From positions 1 to 33,074 of the forward strand of contig JAFSXU010000028.1 of the NCBI GenBank assembly GCA_017443895.1: DNA of 33,074 nucleotides, written 5' to 3'. The notes under the pieces are model-generated. The model was given only the letters and a program-made list of their open reading frames with translations, was not told where the DNA came from and did not search any database. Each line of letters begins with the position of its first letter. Positions within the stretch are counted from its first letter, which is position 1. The DNA is from Clostridia bacterium. Lineage in GTDB: Bacteria > Bacillota > Clostridia > UBA1381. Made by a program: the position numbers and the translations under genes. Shown one piece after another: positions 1 through 13,937 of this stretch.

Positions 1-1
1 A

Positions 2-145
2 AATTCCGCAACCGAGCTTTTGAATGATGGAAAAAGCGTTACAGAAACGGCTGAAATATTAGGCTTTTCATCACAGGCTCACCTGTCAAAGGTCTATAAA
101 AAGATGATGGGCAAGAGCCCAAGTCAGATCAAAAGAGAAGGTTGA
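2..145 (+). CDS. AraC-family transcriptional regulator, C-terminal end only
   Basis: Only the last 47 codons are in the window; the gene begins upstream. The reading frame starting at base 2 contains SVTETAEILGFSSQAHLSKV followed by YKKMMGKSPSQIK. This is the second helix-turn-helix of the AraC/XylS DNA-binding domain with its usual G-x-S/T-P tail, and it ends in TGA at 143-145. AraC regulators commonly sit next to the sugar genes they control, and glycosidase genes follow on the same strand, so control of this locus is a reasonable inference. The effector-binding domain is not visible, so the inducer cannot be guessed. Confidence 0.85.
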   Translation, partial: NSATELLNDGKSVTETAEILGFSSQAHLSKVYKKMMGKSPSQIKREG

Positions 146-252
146 TAAAGTATATATACAGGGACAGATAAATGAAAATTTAGGTATAGGTAACAGCCTT
201 TTACGATAAGTTAGTAAAAAATAAAAAAATATATGTTCATGAGGGACACAAA

Positions 253-566
253 ATGAAACCAAGAATAGGCATAAGACCTACAATTGACGGACACGGTGTG
301 GCGGAGTTGCCTCTGCCATACTTACCCTGTTTCCGCTTGATGTATACGAAAAGCCTGTATATCTTATGGAAAAGGTACCCGGAGATGCTGTAAAAACGCC
401 GATATGGGACGAGTATAGGAAGATAATAAAACCCTATACAGATGAAGAGCATGAATTTATAGAACGGTTTGCGTTTTATGAAAGAGCGAAAAATGCCTAT
501 GCCGTAGTAATGACGGGAGAGAGCGCATTGTACGCCAATGTTATTTTAAAAAAGGGCGTAGTTTAA
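253..566 (+). pseudogene. fucI/fucU deletion fusion, frameshifted relic
   Basis: The first 13 codons from ATG 253 read MKPRIGIRPTIDG, the N-terminus of L-fucose isomerase (FucI). From the shared DG onward the frame reads HGVAEL, typical of the RbsD/FucU sugar-mutarotase family. About one base is then missing near 310-311. The rest of FucU continues in another frame as SAILTLFPLDVYEKPVYLME, then VPGD, and from 366 to the stop at 566 as a clean FucU C-terminus with FAFYERAKNAYAVVMTGE and LKKGVV. The simplest reading is a deletion between fucI and a downstream fucU that joined the two at matching Asp-Gly codons, followed by a frameshift. A good ribosome site (GAGGGA) precedes the ATG. FucI isomerises L-fucose and FucU interconverts its anomers; neither activity is expected from this relic. 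Confidence 0.8.
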
Positions 567-656
567 ATGGTGGGTTTATCTAAGAATTTTTTGAAGTAAT
601 TATGATTATGGTAAGCGCAGATTTGGTTTTGTATTAAAGAACACAAAAATAGATAA

Positions 657-3536
<2,880 letters not shown>

Positions 3537-3558
3537 CCACGAAGCAGGAGGAACATAT

Positions 3559-4161
3559 ATGTTAAAAGTAGAAATTGATTCAGAAAGAATAACTGGTAAA
3601 ATCAAACCTATGCACGCAGTAAACACGGCCCACTCATAGGCAGACGCACCCCCCAAAAGAGACAATTTCAAGGCGTTTAAGGAGACGAGAATACCTTATT
3701 CGAGAAATCATGACGCATCGTTTTGCTTAGTGCAGGGCTCGGTATGGGAGCGCTCATACAGAAACTGTGATTTTGATGCTTATTTTGAACCTGCAAAAGG
3801 GTTTGATCCTGATATTATAATTTGCCTTATAAGCGAAAATATATCAAATGATGATTTTGATGCTGAAGTTTTTATTGAACAATTTCACAGACTTCATAAA
3901 TATCTTTCGGGCAATAATGAAAATACAAGGATAATAGTGGCGTCAAATTTCTTCAATAATGAGCAAAAAACCGAAGCAATCAGGGACTATGCAAAAAAAT
4001 ACGGGGCTGAATTTGTTTATGTAAGCGAGCTTATCAAAGATGAGAGCAATTTAGCATCGGGATATGAGCATGAGGGTATCAAAATCCACCCGGGAGATAA
4101 GGGAATGGCAATAATAGCAAAAAGATTTATAGATGCACTTAATATCTGTACGGAAAGGTAA
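3559..4161 (+). pseudogene. Broken fusion: glycosidase N-terminus joined to SGNH/GDSL hydrolase C-terminus
   Basis: A good ribosome site (AGGAGG) precedes ATG 3559. The frame reads MLKVEIDSERITGKIKPMHA, then an in-frame TAG at 3637-3639, then continues in the same frame with RDNFKAFKETRIPYSRNHDA. Both stretches resemble the start of GH39-like/beta-xylosidase-type TIM-barrel enzymes. After about 3726 the sequence changes to an SGNH/GDSL-like hydrolase C-terminus: FDPDIIICLISEN, an RIIVASNFF strand and a HEGIKIHPGDKGM block-V-like segment ending in AKRFIDAL. No catalytic Ser block I is present, and the glycosidase lacks its active site. I read this as an internal deletion fusing two neighbouring genes plus a nonsense mutation. 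The part from 3730 could still be expressed as a short protein, but I would not expect activity. Confidence 0.7.
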
Positions 4162-4202
4162 AGCAATAAAATCCGATATATTGTGAAAGAGGATATTAAC
4201 AT

Positions 4203-6044
4203 ATGAAACAATTTACACAACTGAAAAAGGCAAGCGAGCTGTGGGATATATGCGGAGATTTCGGAGAATTTGACGGTGATATTCGGCTTAATGAAGCCAC
4301 AGTTTCCTGTATGGGCGATGCTCTTTATGTATGCTCTGAATTTAAAAAGGACGGTGACATTACAAGTGTTACGGGAAAAATAAAAAATATTTCGGATAAA
4401 GCCTTAACGCTCACATCTGTCAGCTACAGATTTTATTTTGACGGAGGAGAATACGATGTATATTCCCAGTATAACGGCTGGCAAAATGAAAGTATGGGAG
4501 AGTGGCAACCACTTGTTACAGGTGTATCGGTTATGGGAAAAAGCATAAGAACAGCTCAGAGCGCTGTGCCGTTTATGTGTCTGTGGAACAGGCAATCAGG
4601 CAGGGGAACCGTTTTTCATATGCTTCCGGATTCTTTGTGGAAGATGAGCGCAGAAAGACTTTATAAGAGCGGTGAGGTTACATATATTGAAGCCCGAACG
4701 GGCGTTTATGAGCATAATTTCTCACTTTTATTGTATCCGGGTGAAGAATTTGAGATGCCACGGATTATATATTACACAGCCTCAAACAAAACAGATATGG
4801 ACTGCTACAAACTCCATAACTTCATAAACAGCACTTATCCCCGCCGCAAAATGCCTGTCATATATAACACATGGCTTTGTAGGTTTGATAAAATCACTTA
4901 TGAGAATGTCATAAATCAGGTGCCTTTGGCGGCTCAGCTTGGCGTTGAATACTTTGTTATTGATGCGGGCTGGTTTGGACAAGGTAGTGAATGGACATCA
5001 AGCAGGGGCGATTGGACGGAAAACAAAACAGGCACCCTTTGTGGCCGTATGAAGGATATTGCCGATGAGGTACGCAGATACGGTATGAAATTCGGTTTCT
5101 GGATAGAAATGGAAAGTGCGGATAAATCAGCTGATATTGTAAAATCGCATCCGGAGTATTTTATTTCGGGAGATGTTGAATTCCTTGATTTTTCAAGAGA
5201 TGATGTTTGTGAATATATGTTTGAAACTATAAGCGGTCTTATTGAAAAATACGGTGCAGAGTTTATAAAATTCGATTTTAATGCTGATTTGTATTATGAT
5301 AAAAAACGCTCAGGATTTATGAAATATTTTAACGGCTACACTGGGCTTATAAAAAAACTAAGAGCAAGCTATCCTGCGCTTTATATGGAAAACTGCTCAT
5401 CGGGCGGTGCGAGAATGGAGCTTAAAAACGGGCTGCTCTTTGACAGCTTCTGGCTTTCAGATAACCAAAGTCCGTTTGAAGGAACCCGTATTTTCAAGGA
5501 CACAATTTTGAGAATACCGCCACAGTGGATTGAATGTTGGGCAGTTATAAAAGGTTATAAGGGATATGTTTATCCGGGAGTGGAGCAGGAGAAAATCATT
5601 TCTGTAAATGATGCGGCATGGGATAATGCTATTGAAGTAAAAGACAGCTATCTTAGGGGCTTCCTTACAGGCAGTCCCATAGGCTTGAGCTTTGATCTTA
5701 CAACCATTTCGGACACGGTGTTTAACTCGCTTAAAGGCTTTATTTCCGATTTCAAAAAAGACCGGGAATTTTGGCTAAAAGCAAACTGCCGTATTCTTAC
5801 AGATACAAAAGATATACTTGTTTTGCAATTTAGCGATGAGTGCCTTTGTGATTTGCGAATACTTGTATTTTCCGGCAAAGTGCGCCAAGACGCAGTTACT
5901 GTATTCCCAATCATAGGCGAGGACAATTATACCGTAGACAATAAAGAGATTTTGTGTGAGGATATAAGCCAAAACGGTATATCTGTACCCATAAAAGGAA
6001 ACTACCAATGTGAATTTGTAAATATGAAAAAACGGAGGAAATAA
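4203..6044 (+). CDS. Alpha-galactosidase, glycoside hydrolase family 36
   Basis: A 613-residue protein with the GH36 pattern: an N-terminal beta-supersandwich, then a TIM barrel with EYFVIDAGWFG, GMKFGFWIEMES, the nucleophile in FIKFDFNAD (Asp358), YMENCSSGGARM and the acid/base in FWLSDNQSPFEGTRIF (Asp420). GH36 enzymes release terminal alpha-galactose from oligosaccharides such as melibiose and raffinose. It has no signal peptide, so it is probably cytoplasmic. At 613 residues it is shorter than the roughly 700-740 typical of bacterial GH36, mainly in the N-terminal domain. A ribosome site (GAGGA) precedes ATG 4203. Its TAA overlaps the ATG of the broken transporter gene (TAATG), which indicates translational coupling in one operon. 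Confidence 0.92.
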   Translation: MKQFTQLKKASELWDICGDFGEFDGDIRLNEATVSCMGDALYVCSEFKKDGDITSVTGKIKNISDKALTLTSVSYRFYFDGGEYDVYSQYNGWQNESMGEWQPLVTGVSVMGKSIRTAQSAVPFMCLWNRQSGRGTVFHMLPDSLWKMSAERLYKSGEVTYIEARTGVYEHNFSLLLYPGEEFEMPRIIYYTASNKTDMDCYKLHNFINSTYPRRKMPVIYNTWLCRFDKITYENVINQVPLAAQLGVEYFVIDAGWFGQGSEWTSSRGDWTENKTGTLCGRMKDIADEVRRYGMKFGFWIEMESADKSADIVKSHPEYFISGDVEFLDFSRDDVCEYMFETISGLIEKYGAEFIKFDFNADLYYDKKRSGFMKYFNGYTGLIKKLRASYPALYMENCSSGGARMELKNGLLFDSFWLSDNQSPFEGTRIFKDTILRIPPQWIECWAVIKGYKGYVYPGVEQEKIISVNDAAWDNAIEVKDSYLRGFLTGSPIGLSFDLTTISDTVFNSLKGFISDFKKDREFWLKANCRILTDTKDILVLQFSDECLCDLRILVFSGKVRQDAVTVFPIIGEDNYTVDNKEILCEDISQNGISVPIKGNYQCEFVNMKKRRK

Positions 6045-6567
6045 TGCTCTATTTTTTGCTTTTTATATCGGTTCTCACCGATACATTGCGGAATATGTAT
6101 AATAACCATTTCAGCAAATCCATATTAAAAACCGACAAGGATGCGGTGTTGTTTAATATGATATGTGGCATGGGTGCGATTATTTTTTTCATATTGGCGG
6201 GAGCAGACTGGAGAATTTCGGGGTTTTCTCTGATTACGACTGTATTTTTTTTTCGGCGGTTACAGCGTGAGCACAGTATACTTCAATTCTTGCCATGTCA
6301 ACAGGACCTATGTCCTACAGTGTGCTTTTTACATATTTGGGCATGGTGATATCAACAGGCTTCGGCATTATATACTATAAGCAGCCTATGAGCATTTTTC
6401 AGACTGTCGGTTTTGTCCTGATGCTTCTTACGGTGTTTTTGGGAACAGATCTTAAAAAGGACTCGCAAATGAGCGTTAAATGGCTTATATATGCACTTAG
6501 TAGCTTTGTCTTATGGGGGCTGGTAGGAGTAATTCAGCTTATACATCAAAGCTCATATGATATGTAG
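6044..6567 (+). pseudogene. EamA/DMT-family transporter, frameshifted and truncated
   Basis: Translation starts at an ATG overlapping the GH36 stop and gives MLYFLLFISVLTDTLRNMYN, then about 50 more membrane-type residues up to a run of nine T (6245-6253). The frame then has to change. In the frame used after 6271 the protein continues as QYTSILAMSTGPMSYSVLFT, with GFVLMLLTVFLGTDLKK and a final TM segment ending at TAG 6565. An in-frame TGA at 6268 is a second lesion. The family is normally about 280-300 residues with ten TM helices; here only about the first 170 positions exist. It would have been a sugar or metabolite permease of the drug/metabolite transporter superfamily, probably for this glycosidase operon. 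The palindromic element starting at 6576 lies just past the break. Confidence 0.75.
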
Positions 6568-7062
6568 AGCACAGCGGTTTGTCCGCTGACGCAAGGGCTG
6601 TATGTGTGAACTAAATACACATTGTTTAAAATAAGGGATCCTCTCTTTCCCTCTCTCTCATTGCACATATTGCCGACTTAACTTGTGCATATAATCTAAA
6701 ACCGAGGTCGTGGATGTATCGGTTGAGGTAAATAAGTCGGCAATCACACATATAGCCTTGCGTGAGCGGATAAACCAAAATGCACAACCGTTGAAACCGA
6801 ATAGAAGCCTGCCTACGGTGCAGCTTATCTAAAACATTTAGTTTGTTGGGATCAACAAATTCTCTCCCCTTGAAGCCGAAATATTTAGGAATAGATATTT
6901 AGTATATGCCTTTTAAGGAATATTACATATATTCAACTCTTTCTTTATTATCGGAGCATGGGCGCACACTTGCCAAGCTTTGTCTGGCACAAAAATAGCA
7001 TATGGCAAGGATAGCAGAGAAATTAAATATTATACTGACATAATAGAATAGGAGATGAAGAT
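6568..7062. other. 495-bp gene-free stretch with structured DNA
   Basis: No credible reading frame is present. It contains the nested inverted-repeat element at 6576-6776 (listed separately). Downstream are a small hairpin at about 6842-6857 (TTGTTG/CAACAA), a bulged stem near 6781-6823 (TGCA..CCG with CGGTGCA) and a TGCCA/TGGCA stem near 6972-6993. The ribosome site AGGAGATGA for the next gene is at the right edge. I found no match to a tRNA, tmRNA, SRP RNA, T-box or riboswitch motif that I know. Confidence 0.6.
6576..6776. repeat. 201-bp nested inverted-repeat element (MITE-like or structured RNA)
   Basis: Left arm 6576-6609 and right arm 6744-6776 are complementary over about 33 positions with three mismatches and one bulged base. 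Two of the three mismatches would be G-U pairs in RNA. Directly inside the right arm, 6733-6743 is perfectly complementary to 6670-6680 (TTGCCGACTTA). Inside that, AACCGA at 6700-6705 pairs with TCGGTT at 6719-6724. The left side also carries a pyrimidine-rich stretch near 6641-6660. The arms could be terminal inverted repeats of a small non-autonomous element that truncated the EamA gene, or helices of a noncoding RNA. I did not find an obvious target-site duplication. Confidence 0.6.
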
Positions 7063-7776
7063 ATGCTGTTGTTTTATATACGCCATGGAGATCCGATTTA
7101 TGACCCCGATTCGCTTACACCATTGGGCAATCGTCAAGCGGAGGCTGTTGCAAAGCGCCTTGCTGTGTACGGTATAGATGAGATATATTCATCGACCTCA
7201 AATCGTGCTCAGCTTACTGCTAAACCGACCGCAGAGCTGTTAAAGAAGGATATACATTTACTGGATTTCTGCAACGAGAAGTATGTGTGGAATGAGTTCG
7301 CAATAGATGATGGAAACGGTTGTGGTTGGATTTTTAGTAAGCGGCAATTTAGAAGAAGCTTGACAAGCACAGAGGTTGCTATGCTCGGAGACAGATGGTA
7401 TGAGCACCCCGGATTTCAAGAATACAAATTCAAAGAGGGTATTCAGCGCGTCAACCGTGAACTTGACGGATTTATTGCCAAGCTGGGCTATGAGCATGAT
7501 CGAGATCAAAGAGTATATAGAGCTTTATCACCAAATGATAAAAGAATAGCACTCTTTGCGCATCAAGGCTTTGGAATAAGCTTCTTATCAAGCATTCTTG
7601 ACATACCGTATCCTATTGTAGCAACACATTTCGATATGTGTCATAGTGGTATGACAGTAATTGAGTTTTACAACGAGGACGGTATAGTGATACCTAAAGC
7701 ACTTAGTATCTCCAATGACTCACATATTTATCGCGAAGGGCTGCCGATGAATTATAATAACGCGATACGCTTTTAG
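7063..7776 (+). CDS. Histidine phosphatase family protein (phosphoglycerate-mutase-like)
   Basis: A 237-residue protein starting MLLFYIRHGDPIYDPDSLTP. RHG at residues 7-9 carries the phospho-accepting histidine, and TPLGNRQAEAVAKRL plus EIYSSTSNRAQLTA are the usual following motifs. FAHQGFGIS supplies the second catalytic histidine late in the protein. Members dephosphorylate small metabolites or act as mutases; the substrate cannot be told from sequence. The start is well supported by AGGAGATGA about 8 bases upstream. It is flanked on both sides by gene-free, hairpin-rich DNA, so it is probably transcribed alone. Confidence 0.9.
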   Translation: MLLFYIRHGDPIYDPDSLTPLGNRQAEAVAKRLAVYGIDEIYSSTSNRAQLTAKPTAELLKKDIHLLDFCNEKYVWNEFAIDDGNGCGWIFSKRQFRRSLTSTEVAMLGDRWYEHPGFQEYKFKEGIQRVNRELDGFIAKLGYEHDRDQRVYRALSPNDKRIALFAHQGFGISFLSSILDIPYPIVATHFDMCHSGMTVIEFYNEDGIVIPKALSISNDSHIYREGLPMNYNNAIRF

Positions 7777-8117
7777 AAAGTAAAGACAAGTAATCAGATG
7801 TTTAGTTAATAATAAGCTTATAGTAGGCTTGTCAAGGGAAAGTGTGTTACTGAATGAGGGACAGAAAAAGCAGAAGTGCTGCTGTTCCACCCACAAACAA
7901 TAGCATGAACGCTATTTGAGAATAGCAGGAATAGATTTATTAAGTAACGAGGCGTACTGTGTGATGTATCCAATCTGCCGTATAATGACAGATTGGGTCA
8001 ATGACACATTCTCAACCATTTTTGCATAATAAAAAACAATACAGATAGTGATAGCTTGATTAACATAGACAGTGTTTTTATAAGCTTATATGAACAACTA
8101 ATAAAGGTAAGCTATAT
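7777..8117. other. 341-bp gene-free stretch with three hairpins
   Basis: No credible gene. Three local dyads are visible: GGGAC/GTTCC enclosing AGCAG/CTGCT (about 7858-7891), AATAGC/GCTATT (about 7903-7921), and a 20-base imperfect stem between about 7959 and 8010 built around CCAATCTG/CAGATTG. None is followed by a clear T run, so they are not simple terminators. The ribosome site for the PHP gene (AAAGG) is at the right edge. Confidence 0.5.
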
Positions 8118-8837
8118 ATGAATGTTAAAGAAATTTCTAAAATAAAACCTATGAAGTATAAATATGAAACGCATCTGCACACAAAGCATATCAGCAAGTG
8201 TGCACATTCCGATGTGCGGGATAGCCTTGAGTTCTATAAGGAAAAGGGATATGACGGAGTGTTTATAACAAATCATTTTCTTGACGGGAACATAAATGTT
8301 GACAAAACCTTGCCTTATGCCGAACAGGTAGAATTCTACTTTTCCGATTATGAAAAAGCTCTTGAACTTTCCTCAGAGATTGGAATAAAGGTGTTTTGCG
8401 GAGTGGAGTTAAGCTACAAAGGAACAGATTTCTTGATTTACGGGTTGGATAAGATGTGGTACCTTGAAAATCCGCAGATAATGGAGATGGAAAAGAGTAA
8501 GGAGCTGGAGTTTATGAGGGACAGTGGGGCTCTGGTAATACAGGCTCATCCTTTCCGCATGGCGACTTATATTGACCACATACGAATTTATACGAACTCG
8601 ATACACGGTATGGAGGTAATAAATGCCAACAGGTCAGAACGGGAAAATGATATGGCACTCTACTATGCTACAAGCTACGGTCTTTTGATGACGGCGGGCA
8701 GTGATAATCATATGGGTAAGGAGCAAAAAAAGGTTGCAGGTATGAGCTTTGATACACCTCTGAGAGATGAGAATGATTTTATTGAACGGGTAAAAAAGGG
8801 TGAGCAAGTAATATTCTATGAGGAATTAGATAAATAA
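8118..8837 (+). CDS. PHP-domain metal-dependent phosphoesterase
   Basis: A 239-residue protein with the PHP signature: KYETHLHTKHISKCAHS (HxH metal ligands near residue 17), GYDGVFITNHF, a VFCGVELSYKG strand, LVIQAHPFR and a late MTAGSDNHMG. PHP proteins use a trinuclear metal centre to hydrolyse phosphoesters; relatives include histidinol phosphatase and nucleoside 3',5'-bisphosphate phosphatases. Substrate is not clear. It appears cytoplasmic and monocistronic. The start is supported by AAAGG 10-14 bases upstream of ATG 8118. Confidence 0.9.
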   Translation: MNVKEISKIKPMKYKYETHLHTKHISKCAHSDVRDSLEFYKEKGYDGVFITNHFLDGNINVDKTLPYAEQVEFYFSDYEKALELSSEIGIKVFCGVELSYKGTDFLIYGLDKMWYLENPQIMEMEKSKELEFMRDSGALVIQAHPFRMATYIDHIRIYTNSIHGMEVINANRSERENDMALYYATSYGLLMTAGSDNHMGKEQKKVAGMSFDTPLRDENDFIERVKKGEQVIFYEELDK

Positions 8838-8867
8838 TCATATTTTTAGTTTATGGAGAATAGGATT

Positions 8868-9525
8868 ATGATTAGGTCTGAACTGATTTATATATTGAGA
8901 ATATTGGCGGTAGGGTTATCGAATATGAGCATAAAATTGCCTTAAAGAGTCAGGTATAGGAACGCATTGCTTGGTGGCTTGCGGAGCGGCTTTGATGATG
9001 ATATTGTCAAAATACGGTTTTTCCGATATTCCATTGGATTTTAACGGAATAAAGGGTGCAGATCCGTCAAGAATTGCCTCACAAGTTGTGAGCGGAGTAG
9101 GATTTTTGGGTGCAGGAATGATATTTGTACATAAAAATACAATTTCAGGACTTACAACTGCTGCCGGAATGTGGGCAACCGCAGGCATAGGTATGGCGAT
9201 AGGAGCGGGAATGTACATAACGGGAATGGTGGTGACAGGGATAGTTGTTGTTGTACAGGTTGTACTGCACTGTAATATAAAGTGGATGAAAGTACTGCGT
9301 CTTAAAGTGGTAAGCATATATGATGTGGATGAAATTGATTATCAAAAGCATATAACAGACAGGTTTAATGAAAACGGAATTTCTGTTCATGATATAGCAA
9401 TACGCAAAGCCGGGAAAGACAGTGCAAGAAACTATAAAATAACGGTTGAAATTCCCGACTCCGTTAATGAAGAAGAAATACTTTCATTGATCGATTATAA
9501 TGCGAAAATAAGTGCAAAGTTATAG
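8868..9525 (+). pseudogene. MgtC/SapB-family membrane protein, frameshifted
   Basis: From ATG 8868 the frame gives MIRSELIYILRILAV and soon stops. The protein continues in a second frame as IEYEHKIALK and in a third as ESGIGTHCLVACGAALMMIL through to the stop at 9525. Joined, these give the MgtC layout: first TM helix, the Y-E-x-x-H..K-x-x-G-x-R/G-T-H signature, then SQVVSGVGFLGAGMIFVHK, TTAAGMWATAGIGMAIGAGM and a cytoplasmic ACT-like C-terminal domain. The signature is disturbed (SGIGTH). At least two frameshifts in the first 30 codons make a functional product unlikely, though a shortened form from TTG 8971 could be made. MgtC proteins affect membrane energetics and Mg2+ stress in other bacteria. 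Confidence 0.75.
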
Positions 9526-9669
9526 CTTATATAACATAATAAAAAACAACAATGCATAAAACTGAACAAACCCACTAATCTGAAGTATGAATGAAAAAGT
9601 CTGATTTGATAAAAATTATCTTTGTAACTTTGAACCATTGTTTTTATATTATTGTGATGCTAAAATGCC

Positions 9670-9870
9670 TTATTTGTGATAATAACCGGCTTCAAAGTCG
9701 GTTGGAGTTTTGTACCTTAGAGAGGTATGAGGTCGTTTATCATTATAGAAACTAATATACTTATCAAGACTTCTTTTAAATTCCCCTATGGTGGGATACT
9801 TGTATCGGTATAGCTCTTATCTTTTAAGGTTATTGAAAAATGGATCACATACAGAATTGTTATATGGGCT
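9670..9870 (-). mobile_element. IS3-family transposase (OrfB) C-terminal remnant
   Basis: On the - strand the frame from 9870 to the TAA at 9670-9672 reads SPYNNSVCDPFFNNLKR, then an in-frame TAA where Glu is expected, then ELYRYKYPTIGEFKRSLDKY and FYNDKRPHTSLRYKTPTDFE. This is the end of the rve integrase core of IS3-family OrfB, with the usual Y-N-x-K-R-P-H-x-S-L and T-P-x-x-F landmarks. The upstream part of the element is gone and the frame carries a nonsense codon, so it is a dead fragment. GTGTCCCACTTTTG at 9897-9910 resembles an IS3-family terminus and may mark the old 5' end; that point is uncertain. Confidence 0.8.
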
Positions 9871-10178
9871 AATTTAAATATAAATTTTGTTTAACAGTGT
9901 CCCACTTTTGTAAATTAATTTAATTGTATCATAATATGAGTGCAGACACAGTAGCTGGGTTTGGACTCGAACCGTGACCAAAGCTAATGATTTATTAAAT
10001 CCTATCAGGTTTTGCATGATAAGGAGTAACTTCTACCAAACAGTTTTATAAATGACTCAGCATTATTATGACAAAAACCATTGAATATTTTAAAATATGA
10101 AATTTACCATTAGCGAATGTTGCCTGACGATTGTCTTTGTGAGTGATTATATAAGGCATATATAATTTAATGGTGTTT

Positions 10179-10227
10179 ATAAAAACCAAATTTGTTGGGA
10201 ACATTGTCCGGCAAAATTGGTTTTTTA
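10179..10227 (+). terminator. Terminator-like hairpin
   Basis: AAAAACCAA near 10181-10189 pairs with TTGGTTTTT at 10218-10226, extended by TTTG/CAAA, around a 17-base loop. The right arm ends in a run of T. It looks like an intrinsic terminator, but no intact + strand gene lies directly upstream, so it may be a relic. Confidence 0.45.
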
Positions 10228-10237
10228 TAATATAGGG

Positions 10238-10264
10238 AATTGCTCGTAAGGTGAGCAATTTTGC
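10238..10264 (+). terminator. Terminator-like hairpin
   Basis: AATTGCTC (10238-10245) pairs perfectly with GAGCAATT (10253-10260) around a 7-base loop, followed by a weak T-rich tail. Being only 11 bases after the previous hairpin and with no gene between, it could instead be part of a larger structured junction. Confidence 0.35.
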
Positions 10265-10396
10265 TTATTCAAAAAAAGATTAAATTTTTGCCCCAAGATT
10301 GGGGGTTAGGGGGTTGATGATTTTCAATCTTTTTTATTTGCGCACAAACAAATGAACAAGCCTGTAAAAAGATAAATCTCAAAAAAATTCTTAACT

Positions 10397-10429
10397 ACTA
10401 AGTAATGATTAGTACATAGAGTCTATAAT
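10397..10429 (+). promoter_or_regulatory. Candidate promoter and operator of the HTH gene
   Basis: TATAAT at 10424-10429 is a consensus -10 box 26 bases before ATG 10456. Just upstream, ACTAA (10397-10401) and TTAGT (10409-10413) form a perfect inverted repeat across the expected -35 position. This would suit autoregulation by the HTH protein, but that is inference. Confidence 0.4.
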
Positions 10430-10455
10430 GAAATTGTAGACAGGAGGTGCAAACT

Positions 10456-10791
10456 ATGAGAGCGGAATTTTCTGCTTTTGATCGTAGAATGGAAATATTA
10501 TCTATTCTTATGAATCATAAGCTGATTTCTCGTCTGGAGCTTGCAAGAAGATTTTCAGTTTCAGATGTTACAATCGGTGAAGACATTATTGCTTTAAGTA
10601 GATTTGCACCTATAGCCAGTAAAATGGGAAGATATGGCGGAGTGTACATAATTGATGAATATAAAAGAGAAAGAGTGTATTTATCCCGTGAAGAAGAGAG
10701 GCTGATTGAAAAATTAGTACAAAGACTTTCGGGAAAAGAACAAAAGCTTTTGAAATTTGTATTGTATAAGTTTGCCATGCCAAAAGTCTGA
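10456..10791 (+). CDS. HTH (DeoR/HTH_11-like) transcriptional regulator of the recombinase module
   Basis: A 111-residue protein. Residues about 8-45 (FDRRMEILSILMNHKLISRL, then ELARRFSVSDVTIGEDI) form a DeoR/HTH_11-type winged helix-turn-helix, and GRYGGVYIID is the wing. The rest is short and helical, with no effector domain, so it is a compact DNA-binding protein. I start it at ATG 10456, 8 bases after AGGAGG at 10442-10447, not at the GTG that overlaps that site. A small HTH gene upstream of a serine recombinase is common in clostridial integrative elements, so control of excision or of the element's genes is likely but not proven. Confidence 0.75.
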   Translation: MRAEFSAFDRRMEILSILMNHKLISRLELARRFSVSDVTIGEDIIALSRFAPIASKMGRYGGVYIIDEYKRERVYLSREEERLIEKLVQRLSGKEQKLLKFVLYKFAMPKV

Positions 10792-11289
10792 GCACACTGT
10801 CTGCAAAGATTTTATATCTTATTTTTACAAAGAAAACACGCAAGATAACGGCGATGTAGAATAAATAAGCAAACGGATACTTTGCCGTATATACGAGCAA
10901 TTCTGTGGATGCGCCAAGACAGTTCTTTGTGGCTTCTACGCTGTTGTAATACAACACCGTCATCAGATGATGACTCACACAAAGATGAGCGACAAACATT
11001 TGCACAGAAAAAAGGATTGCTGCCTTTTGCCAAGACTGTATACGGTTATAATGATACTTCTGCTCAGTCACAGCCCGAGCGTTAAAAGCGTCGCAGGCAA
11101 TGAGAGCAGTCCGGGCAGAGCCGGGAAGGTGAGATTCCTATGAAGCAGTTTGGCACACTGCTGTCCGTTATAGCTTTTGAATTTGATGACATAAATAATG
11201 AGATAGTTATATCTGTCTTATCATTTATGTAATTGAATAGAATAGTACAAACTTAATTGAGCATAAAATATAAAAGGTGGTGTTGCGAT
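10792..11289. other. 498-bp stretch with a start-less frame on the minus strand
   Basis: No confident gene. On the - strand one frame is open from about 11142 down past 10797. It translates to LPGSARTALIACDAFNARAV, then HYNRIQSWQKAAILFSVQMF and later YPFAYLFYIAVILRVFFV, giving two hydrophobic segments. It lacks an ATG and a ribosome site; a GTG at 11071 is the only early start. Its end would overlap the HTH gene, so at most 10797-11142 could be a relic of a membrane protein. On the + strand, AGCAGT/ACTGCT at about 11144-11162 makes a hairpin. Ribosome-site sequence for the next gene lies at about 11273-11280. Confidence 0.35.
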
Positions 11290-11463
11290 ATGAATGAGAG
11301 TATAACTGTATATTCAGATGACGACAGCTTAAATAAAAGCGGAGAATTTATATTGAACATTCAAAAAGCAATGCTTGTTACTTTATTTGAAAAGGAACAA
11401 ATAAACCACTCCCAATACGAATACGCAGTTGAGTTGCTGGAGAAAAAATTTCGTAAGAAATAA
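11290..11463 (+). CDS. Small SHOCT-like protein of the recombinase module
   Basis: A 57-residue protein starting MNESITVYSDDDSLNKSGEF and ending LFEKEQINHSQYEYAVELLEKKFRKK. The last 35 residues resemble a SHOCT-type short helical motif (L..G.IT..EYE..K..LL). I chose ATG 11290 because AAGGTGG lies about 10 bases upstream; an in-frame start at 11257 has no such site. It sits 56 bases before the serine recombinase on the same strand. Small proteins in this position are frequent in clostridial recombinase modules and could be a recombination directionality factor or an accessory DNA-binding protein. I cannot tell which. Confidence 0.65.
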   Translation: MNESITVYSDDDSLNKSGEFILNIQKAMLVTLFEKEQINHSQYEYAVELLEKKFRKK

Positions 11464-11519
11464 TTTTTTGAAAATATTCATAAACTGCGGTAAAATCAAA
11501 ATGAAGGGAGTGATTTATA

Positions 11520-13298
11520 ATGATATATGTAGCGGCATATTGCAGGGTATCTACGGATAATGAAGATCAGGCGAACAGCTTTGAAAGTCAAAAATCATAT
11601 TTTGAAGAATACATAAACAGAAATCCGGATTGGGAGCTATATGAGATATATGCTGATGAAGGTCTGTCGGGGACAAACACAAAAAAGAGAAAAGCATTTA
11701 ACAAGATGATTGCTGATGCACATTTAGGAAGATTTAATATGATTATCACAAAGGAGGTCAGCAGATTTGCAAGAAATACGGTTGATACACTGCAATATAC
11801 AAGAGAGTTAAAAGCATTGAATATTGGTGTGTATTTTGCACTTGATAACATAGATACCCTTGCACCGGACGGAGAACTCAGACTTACCATTATGGCATCG
11901 CTTGCTCAGGAGGAAAGCCGAAAAACATCGGAGCGTGTAAAATGGGGACAGAAAAGGCAAATGGAAAAGGGGGTAGTATTCGGCAGGGATATGCTGGGAT
12001 ACAATGTAGTAAGTGGTGTACTCCACGTTAACGAAGAAGGTGCCCAAATTGTAAGATTGATATTTCATAAATATGTGTACGAAAAAAAGGGTACCGCTAC
12101 CATTGCACGGGAACTGCGTGAGGCAGGTTATAAAACAATAACAGGGAATGCGATATGGACTAATACCGTAATTTTAAAAGTATTGCGTAATGAAAAGTAT
12201 TGCGGAGATCTTGTCCAAAAGAAAACTATTACTCCGGATTACCTGACACATCAAAAAAAGTACAATCATGGTGAAGAAGATTTTGTTATATTAAGAAATC
12301 ATCACGAGCCGATAGTTTCAAGAGAAATTTGGGATATGGCACAAGCAGAACTTGACAGGCGTACACCTTCTGAAGAAATTAAGCTAAGACATTCTAATCG
12401 TTATCCGTTGTCTGGAAAAATCAGATGTGGCTGTTGTGGAAACAGCTTTGTTGCCAGAAGCAAAAAAAGAAAGGATGGAAGCAGGTATAAAGCATGGCAT
12501 TGTTTAGAAGCAACAAGGCATGGTCTGCCGAAAGTAGATCCTGCAGGGAATAAAATTGGCTGTGGCGTTAATTGTCAAATCCGTGATGAAGATTTTATGC
12601 TGGCAGTTAAGAAAGTTATTGAAAGTCTTGAGGTAAACAAGCAAGTTGTTTTAGACGGTATCTGTGATGTGTTAAAAGCTGTTTTTAAATCCACACAAGA
12701 TCAGCATATTGATAAAGAGTCTATAAAAAAGAAGATGGATAATATAACCTCAAAATCTGAAAAATTGCTTGATCTTTATTTAACCGAGGATTTAACAAAG
12801 GAACAGTATCGGGAAAAAAAGGAGAGCTATGAAAAGGAACTCTCGCAACTAAAAGAACTGTTGAGTAAAACAGATCAATCAGATAATAATTATGACATAG
12901 AACAAGCAATTTCAGATATAAAAAAATATCTTTCAGATGTATTGTACGGAAAAAAGCAAGACGAAACCTTTTATAAAGCAATAATTGATAAGATTGTGGT
13001 ATATGACAGGAGGCATTTTGATATTTATTTAAATTTGCTCCCACACAGATGGAAAGTGGTGTTAAATTCAGCGTTGAACGCTGATGCCCTGCGTGGGAGC
13101 ATTAAGTACACGATGTACCGATATCTGTTAAAAGACCTTTTGTTACATCATCTTTCATTATATATCTTTGCGATAAATACCTTAAAGATGCTCCCAATTC
13201 GCCGTTTGGGCCGCCGTACTGTGTTGCAATTGCAGTTGCGAGGCGAGGGTTTTTTGTCTTTATGTTTATGGGGTATTCGAGCATTTTTGCATACTTAA
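11520..13298 (+). CDS. Large serine recombinase (site-specific integrase) reading across its attachment site
   Basis: A 592-residue large serine recombinase. The resolvase catalytic domain begins YVAAYCRVSTDNEDQ with nucleophile Ser11, then EVSRFARNTVDTLQYTRELK and LAQEESRKTSERVKWGQK. The Recombinase domain (about 155-270) has GYNV..LHVNEEGAQIVRLIF, followed by a zinc ribbon with CGCC at 303-306 and later cysteines. A coiled coil lies at about 375-470, and the family's normal end is YLNLLPHRW near residue 515. Codons past about 531 (base 13114 on) run antisense through cotJC, so the last 61 residues are host-derived and would differ after excision. The ribosome site AAGGGAGTG precedes ATG 11520. 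The enzyme would catalyse integration or excision at the cotJC junction. Confidence 0.93.
   Translation: MIYVAAYCRVSTDNEDQANSFESQKSYFEEYINRNPDWELYEIYADEGLSGTNTKKRKAFNKMIADAHLGRFNMIITKEVSRFARNTVDTLQYTRELKALNIGVYFALDNIDTLAPDGELRLTIMASLAQEESRKTSERVKWGQKRQMEKGVVFGRDMLGYNVVSGVLHVNEEGAQIVRLIFHKYVYEKKGTATIARELREAGYKTITGNAIWTNTVILKVLRNEKYCGDLVQKKTITPDYLTHQKKYNHGEEDFVILRNHHEPIVSREIWDMAQAELDRRTPSEEIKLRHSNRYPLSGKIRCGCCGNSFVARSKKRKDGSRYKAWHCLEATRHGLPKVDPAGNKIGCGVNCQIRDEDFMLAVKKVIESLEVNKQVVLDGICDVLKAVFKSTQDQHIDKESIKKKMDNITSKSEKLLDLYLTEDLTKEQYREKKESYEKELSQLKELLSKTDQSDNNYDIEQAISDIKKYLSDVLYGKKQDETFYKAIIDKIVVYDRRHFDIYLNLLPHRWKVVLNSALNADALRGSIKYTMYRYLLKDLLLHHLSLYIFAINTLKMLPIRRLGRRTVLQLQLRGEGFLSLCLWGIRAFLHT
13037..13117. 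other. Putative att junction of the recombinase element with cotJC
   Basis: cotJC-like coding (read on the - strand) stops matching after the GGTACA that ends ..LLTDIGT, at 13113/13114. The junction sequence GTACACGATGTAC at 13106-13118 is itself a short palindrome and is a likely crossover region. On the element side, GCTCCCAC (13037-13044) and GTGGGAGC (13093-13100) form a perfect inverted repeat that encloses a second perfect stem, TCAGCG/CGCTGA (13068-13084). Serine integrases recognise arms on either side of a central dinucleotide, so these dyads may be recombinase-binding sites. The partner att site is not in the window. Confidence 0.55.
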
Positions 13299-13302
13299 AC
13301 AT
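13102..13302 (-). pseudogene. cotJC: Spore coat protein CotJC (manganese-catalase-like), N-terminal third, interrupted
   Basis: The - strand frame from 13302 reads MFKYAKMLEYPINIKTKNPR, ATAIATQYGGPNGELGASLR and YLSQRYIMKDDVTKGLLTDI, then GT. This matches the start of CotJC, normally about 190 residues with E-E-L-A-H-x-E metal ligands directly after LLTDIGT. Here the gene runs into the recombinase element and stops three codons later (SCT, TAA at 13102-13104), removing all metal-binding residues. The ATG overlaps the cotJB stop (TAATG), and GGGAGG for it lies inside cotJB, so the operon order cotJA-cotJB-cotJC is kept. If the element excises during sporulation, as in skin/sigK, a full cotJC could be rebuilt; otherwise it is a pseudogene. 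Confidence 0.85.
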
Positions 13303-13589
13303 TACATGACACCTCCCTTACAAGATTTGGCGTTTGCGCAAGCCTCCCAGGGCCATGGTGAGCAAAGCCAATTAAACTGCTCTTGTGATGCCAAATCCTC
13401 TGTAGACAATGGGCCAAAGTTGTTTTTATACTCATTCTTGAGGCGCATTGCGCTTTTTTGAAGGTCCTTATACATCTCAAATGCCTTTGTATCATCGGCA
13501 TGAGTATCAAGGTACAGGAGCATATCATAAGCAGCAAACTCATACTGCTGAATTTTTTTTAATAAATCGGTTTTTTGAGTGTTATTCAT
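13302..13589 (-). CDS. cotJB: Spore coat protein CotJB
   Basis: A 95-residue protein, MNNTQKTDLLKKIQQYEFAA, then YDMLLYLDTHADDTKAFEMY, LKNEYKNNFGPLS and a tail with CSPWPWEACA. The Y/L-D-T-H-P/A-x-D-x-x-A pattern, the Y-x-x-x-x-G-P-L segment and a C-terminal P-W-P-W-E are the marks of CotJB. CotJ proteins are spore-coat components made in the mother cell. ATG 13589 is preferred over upstream in-frame starts because GGAGGGGC lies just upstream and the length fits the family. It overlaps the cotJA stop by 8 bases and the cotJC start by one base. Confidence 0.9.
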   Translation of the reverse strand: MNNTQKTDLLKKIQQYEFAAYDMLLYLDTHADDTKAFEMYKDLQKSAMRLKNEYKNNFGPLSTEDLASQEQFNWLCSPWPWEACANAKSCKGGVM

Positions 13590-13773
13590 TTTGCCCCTCC
13601 TTTTTGCATACAGCACCGTATTCACATATGCTAAGGTCAAGCTCAGGGAATATAGTTCCCTGACAGAGCGCTGTGTCTACAGCATAAGTATCGGTGAGGT
13701 TTTGAACCGGTACATATGCATAGCCTACACAGCCACAGGAGAAAGGAGAAGTCATATCATAGTTGTTTTCCAT
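13582..13773 (-). CDS. cotJA: Spore coat associated protein CotJA
   Basis: A 63-residue protein with the CotJA core YAYVPVQNLTDTYAVDTALC followed by QGTIFPELDLSI. In the family this is A-Y-V-P-x-Q, Y-x-x-x-x-A-L-x-x-G-T-x-F-P-E-L. Family members are about 60-90 residues. It is first in the cotJABC operon. ATG 13773 is preceded by GGAGG 7 bases away on the - strand. A short perfect hairpin (TGAGGG/CCCTCA, 13803-13817) lies upstream; I could not assign a sigma-E promoter with confidence. Confidence 0.88.
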   Translation of the reverse strand: MENNYDMTSPFSCGCVGYAYVPVQNLTDTYAVDTALCQGTIFPELDLSICEYGAVCKKEGQNE

Positions 13774-13937
13774 TATAATCCTCCATATTGCTTTATATTA
13801 GTTGAGGGAAACCCTCAGTGATAGGATATGAAAAAACAGGTAAAAGTGTGCAACTATCCTCTTGCTAAAATATACAGACTATGGTAATATTACTACATTA
13901 GGTGTGTCGCAAATAAGCGACAGGATAGGAGACGAAA

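Follow-up and report, generated by a model that had tools for sequence, protein, structure and literature searches.

The window (the whole stretch of DNA analysed, 33,074 nt from a Clostridia bacterium) carries a cotJ operon whose last gene is cut short (Table 1). As the preliminary description held, cotJB and cotJA are intact, cotJB on a reading of the sequence and cotJA by its Pfam match. The minus-strand frame that follows them encodes residues 1–62 of CotJC (MFKYAKMLEY…LLTDIG), beyond which it departs from the CotJC sequence. Its assignment to CotJC rests on the PF05067 domain and on its being encoded after cotJA–cotJB. The sigma-K-like pattern upstream of the operon recurs at 35 of 44 cotJ loci, against 5.5 expected from simple shuffles.

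The remainder of the gene lies on a different contig (C59) of this genome, at the far side of an intervening element. A whole-genome Pfam search returned exactly two Mn_catalase (PF05067) matches: the 5′ piece in the window and C59:62084–62527, where residues 60–197 of CotJC are encoded at 62102–62521. This 3′ half opens abruptly, mid-gene, with DVGVEELGHLEMV, near the EELAH start that had been predicted for the missing part. These two matches are the only ones and are complementary, so the missing half exists beyond the element; the same search found neither an intact second copy of cotJC nor a PF05067 paralog in the window genome. Homologs of cotJC elsewhere continue beyond LLTDIG rather than stopping there.

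Table 1. Features of the interrupted cotJC locus and its element (window positions unless a contig is named)
Feature	Position	Strand	Basis
Right part of intervening element, recombinase at its end	1..13117	.	Pfam
pemK RNA motif (RF02913), upstream of small ORF and recombinase	11048..11143	+	Rfam, 65.3 bits (gathering 34.8)
Sigma-E-like box before small ORF, ATA-N17-CATAAAAT	11242..11269	+	Pattern match, looser form
57-aa small ORF directly upstream of recombinase; candidate recombination directionality factor	11290..11463	+	Same placing at other S2 loci, L050 and L052 among them
Large serine recombinase (Resolvase, Recombinase and Zn-ribbon domains)	11520..13298	+	Pfam; S2-site clade of cotJC recombinases
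attL: element arm 13100–13117 (CATTAAGTACACGATGT...), core CC/GG 13118–13119, then cotJC-side arm	13100..13137	.	Comparison with attR on C59
cotJC 5′ piece, residues 1–62	13117..13302	-	PF05067 match above cut-off; tblastn
cotJB, intact; stop overlaps cotJC start (TAATG)	13302..13590	-	Read from sequence
cotJA, intact	13582..13773	-	PF11007 (CotJA), E 6.6e-13
Sigma-K-like promoter upstream of cotJA, AC-N17-CATATCCTA	13820..13850	-	Sequence pattern
Left part of element	C59:62524-89787		RepA_N, ParA/ParB, NikA/MobC, relaxase, DUF3801 and AbiL-like genes

The interruption falls after LLTDIG(T), as originally described, although the switch to element DNA, at first placed at 13113/13114, is better put at a crossover on the core dinucleotide at 13118/13119, the GG of Gly62 (CC on the plus strand). 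In cotJC orientation attL reads CTTTTAACAGATATCGGTACATCGTGTACTTAATG and attR, on C59, reads CATTAAGTACACGATGTGGGCGTTGAGGAGTTAGG. Aligned, the two share the GG core, and joining them there gives LLTDIGVEELGHLEMV, which restores an uninterrupted frame for a 197-residue protein without a stop (LLTDIG/VEELGHLEMV). The halves and the att comparison together establish the skin-like structure first proposed: a serine-recombinase element lies within cotJC in such a way that the gene can be restored in frame. The deduced attP, CATTAAGTACACGATGT-GGGT-ACATCGTGTACTTAATG, has 17-bp perfect inverted arms with GG exactly central; a symmetric attP with a central dinucleotide is expected for a serine integrase. 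The same core codon occurs at the corresponding junction in other genomes. No exact match to the deduced attP was found in viral contigs.

The element and its recombinase

The element extends from C59:62524 to the end of that contig and continues through the first 13,117 positions of the window contig (C77): at least 40 kb, the middle being unplaced. Pfam matches on the window part include a GH2 beta-galactosidase, a GDSL hydrolase and a melibiase-like glycoside hydrolase, among others, while mobilization genes (NikA/MobC, relaxase PF03432 and DUF3801) are present on the C59 part. A complete conjugative secretion apparatus was not found on these two placed parts, and no phage structural genes were among their Pfam matches, whose content is RepA_N, ParAB, MobC, relaxase and sugar hydrolases. 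The C59 part also carries an AbiLi/AbiLii-like (AAA + RloB) defence pair and a HipA-like gene (L006, 3437–5319).

The recombinase gene was initially thought to end exactly at the junction. Instead, the ORF crosses attL: its last ~60 codons read cotJC antisense when the element is integrated, and the other end of the element when it is circular. The C-terminal ~60 residues thus differ between the two states, and a switch in the enzyme according to integration state is possible. Among the matches listed in phage and plasmid collections, recombinase relatives were all distant (≤50% and ≤48% identity, respectively). Two contigs filed as viral in IMG/VR (L239 and L240) carry cotJC pieces beside recombinases of the S2 type, to which that of the window belongs (see below).

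A small ORF (57–63 aa) precedes most recombinases that occupy this site in relatives (S2, see below); no Pfam family was found for the 57-aa protein of the window. In skin-Cd, a small protein regulated by sigma-E/SpoIIID acts as the directionality factor (PMC5025042). A sigma-E-like box precedes the small ORF in six of ten S2 operons, which are homologous and hence not independent, compared with 9 of 731 control ORF upstream regions (1.2%). It is the looser form of the box that matches; the strict B. subtilis sigma-E consensus matched nowhere, and no sigma-E-like box was found at the S1 recombinases of the window's family. Sequence similar to the pemK RNA motif likewise precedes other S2 recombinases.

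Breaks in cotJC among relatives

The reconstituted CotJC was used to query 70 genomes of the window's family. There were matches in 55, one of which holds only a ~40% identical paralog. The remaining 54 comprise 10 with an intact gene, five whose sole break lies close to the 3′ end (S4), one (G045) with an apparent assembly break and ~38 with at least one break at S1–S3; in 29 of these 38 the break is confirmed by foreign DNA beyond it, and in nine it is called from coordinates alone. Breaks occur after TQYGG (S1, codon 31), LLTDIG (S2, codon 62), TEELAH (S2b, codon 68), LYEDLAA (S3, codon 136) and FQRFGEA (S4, codon 176). Order and class repeat the family sites and add codons ~57 and ~113, making seven break positions across the class. 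S1–S4 are invariant runs of CotJC that align with the GEL, EExxH, AAE and H segments of solved Mn catalases, segments which we take to hold the metal ligands, as in the L. plantarum catalase. Often there are two or three breaks, so that several genomes hold cotJC as two to four pieces, with middle pieces down to 30–35 residues lying between two elements. The same site can be entered in both orientations: the S1 elements of G022 and G023 are opposite to each other. At one locus (L237, G409:C68) the 3′ piece (residues 59–187) is present in two tandem copies ~3.5 kb apart.

Fragmented assembly or chimeric contigs could in principle produce such pieces: the window genome is a 77-contig assembly, and the two pieces in G045 overlap at contig ends in a manner resembling an assembly break. 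However, identical break codons and recombinase lineages recur in many independent assemblies, which argues that the break in the window is neither chance nor misassembly, and the ~40% identical Mn-catalase paralog of the same genomes, nearly always full length, provides an internal control against assembly breakage. With split cotJC genes lying collinear inside single-contig genomes we reject an artefact, to which we assign a negligible chance.

In these single-contig genomes the pieces follow one another along one contig. In G212 (4,068,724 bp) residues 1–33 are followed by 4.7 kb, residues 28–64, 10.6 kb and residues 58–188, an arrangement similar to that in G116, G270 and G408; G334, G305 and G338 have one ~3.3 kb element at S1. 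The shared cores in G212, CGGCGG and ACAGAT...GG, would restore QLGGPDGEL and TDIGTEELAH. Its S1 element encodes a GH44-dockerin-PKD protein with the architecture of Cel44O, which is Ccel_0429 of R. cellulolyticum (PMC4780118), and the genome has a 1581-residue ORF with eight cohesins; G212 is probably Ruminiclostridium cellulolyticum. Elements inside its cotJC (L219, G212:C1:480000-498500) bear a Cel44O-like cellulosomal GH44 gene together with a GH5/SLH cellulase. Other cotJC elements carry an alanine symporter, a DNA-alkylation repair protein, a phosphatase or a superoxide dismutase; the S1 element of G338 (L222, about 3.2–3.3 kb) has little beyond superoxide dismutase and recombinase. In G442, also a complete genome, the halves (C1:198614-198805 and 873263-873643) lie at a distance and could not be rejoined by simple excision without the loss of about 2 Mb; a later rearrangement is likely.

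As in the window, serine recombinase genes at the breaks of relatives aim their 3′ ends at cotJC. In a tree of 36 recombinases the S1, S2, S2b, S3 and S4 groups each receive 100/100 support. A tree of 56 class-wide recombinases requires six site changes, the minimum for seven sites, whereas no shuffle of the labels, out of 1000, gave fewer than 25. Two separate lineages share S1. On the best explanation, several lineages of large-serine-recombinase elements integrate into cotJC, each recognising one conserved attB within the gene, and the window holds the codon-62 (S2) lineage.

Selection and the case for excision during sporulation

In the window genome and in many relatives cotJC is split precisely at site-specific cores, so that attL × attR excision would rejoin it in frame. 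The joined frames stay open even where there are three or four pieces, a single internal stop being found, near the S1 junction of G044. Median dN/dS is 0.09 for pairs in which both genes are split and 0.02–0.06 for close pairs, with observed medians of 0.03–0.09. Nearly all genomes of the family have full-length sigK- and sigE-type genes, and most a full-length spoIVA, showing that the hosts have a sporulation programme. In three or four genomes spoIVA is itself split near residue 403 (G010:C91:4375-18713; G055:C8:71405-84532; G031:C138 and C189), two of the splits being gaps of ~12–13 kb on one contig, which suggests that spoIVA is another interrupted sporulation gene.

These could be ordinary integrative elements that use conserved cotJC DNA as attB, the occupied gene being dead and tolerated (CotJC being dispensable or backed by a paralog) and excision being rare and unrelated to sporulation. 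The plasmid- and ICE-like genes of the window element (RepA_N, ParAB, MobC and relaxase) fit this account, as do the Mn-catalase paralog of some relatives and the little coat defect seen in C. difficile cotCB and cotD mutants (PMC11222575). So, too, does the age of the S2 elements in G023 and G028, which are 98.4% identical against 88% for the flanking DNA (dS of 0.07 for the recombinase, 0.14 for cotJC). Vertical inheritance of this split, which would have given the clearest evidence of function, was rejected, the element DNA being younger than the divergence of the hosts: individual insertions turn over. Some elements have spread recently, and part of the purifying selection may therefore predate their insertion. 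Nevertheless, with ~70% of the cotJC-bearing genomes of the family split, a dead gene would be left mostly unselected, and dN/dS could not have stayed as low as it is; nor would dead genes be expected to keep their frame across three or four pieces, and the window genome has no PF05067 paralog as backup. We consider this account unlikely.

A second possibility is that fragments expressed separately come together as CotJC, or that the 5′ fragment has a role by itself, so that excision is unneeded. In every 5′ piece the frame stays open downstream of the cotJ promoter, and the S4 pieces come close to full length and end in a new tail; indeed, the S4 5′ piece might work unexcised. Yet 3′ pieces begin mid-frame with no evident start, the breaks lie at metal-ligand motifs, and some pieces are as short as the 30–35 residues between two elements. 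This account seems to us very improbable.

The purifying selection on split copies and the sigma-E-like boxes at S2 operons instead favour regulated, skin-like excision, and excision in the mother cell is, we infer, the likeliest mechanism. During sporulation the recombinase, under a mother-cell sigma factor and probably with a small directionality factor encoded just upstream, would excise a circular element in the terminal mother cell and so restore cotJC for coat assembly at the sigma-K stage. The forespore chromosome would keep the element, which would be inherited through the spore, as with skin and SPbeta, and would bear no cost in growing cells.

That the cotJC elements are multiple site-specific lineages, excised in the mother cell during sporulation with restoration of the gene, we regard as probable. 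With little more than even confidence, we extend this to a wider proposal: programmed rearrangement of cotJC may be normal in much of the Clostridia, with independent recombinase lineages, each aimed at a different invariant segment around the metal-ligand motifs, holding the gene in two to four (perhaps five) pieces until it is restored, in the mother cell only. The elements would then be using a terminal cell type to shelter vegetative cargo at no cost, cellulases, superoxide dismutase and transporters being examples.

Comparison with known sporulation and developmental rearrangements

No published interrupted cotJC was found in the literature searched, which leaves out most subscription journals; the nearest mention is of a CotJC homolog encoded next to the prophage phi027 of C. 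difficile. In many annotated genomes cotJC will resemble a pseudogene. The elements also supply natural serine integrases whose target sequences are known, and if G212 is indeed R. cellulolyticum then excision is testable in a cultivable laboratory organism.

The closest parallel is skin in sigK (of B. subtilis and, as skin-Cd with CD1231/CD1234, of C. difficile), where an element likewise lies inside a sporulation gene, with a large serine recombinase at the element end and restoration by attL × attR. In cotJC, by contrast, the target is the gene for a coat enzyme rather than a sigma factor (sigK is intact in the window's family), several sites and recombinase lineages are involved in one gene, and excision is predicted from the DNA. 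The gin element in gerE of B. cereus ATCC10987 (PMC5595907) is similar in being a non-prophage element that splits a small sporulation gene and encodes a serine recombinase with a small partner; however, gin is one element at one site, whereas many lineages target cotJC. SPbeta in spsM, vfbin in spoVFB and yin in yabG of C. botulinum (PMC4191935, PMC10747680) also intervene in late sporulation genes, but these are prophage-like, while the cargo of cotJC elements consists of ICE-like or host-type metabolic genes. Prophage-derived content, typical of skin and SPbeta and not of gin, is absent from the Pfam matches of the window element.

Outside sporulation, the heterocyst interruption elements of cyanobacteria, with four in the nifD of Rivularia (PMC4874684), offer the nearest likeness: several elements, with their own recombinases, in one developmental gene. 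Recombinases of heterocyst elements mostly cluster by element variant (PMC4874684). The target there is a nitrogen-fixation gene without homology to cotJC, and in cotJC the spore line must keep the element that the dying mother cell would lose. For the most part, the known sporulation rearrangements each concern a single element and a single site, and are confined to individual species or genera. Set against these, cotJC is a repeated, class-wide target with a recombinase lineage for each site, and what draws excisable elements to developmental genes thereby becomes a question testable by comparison.
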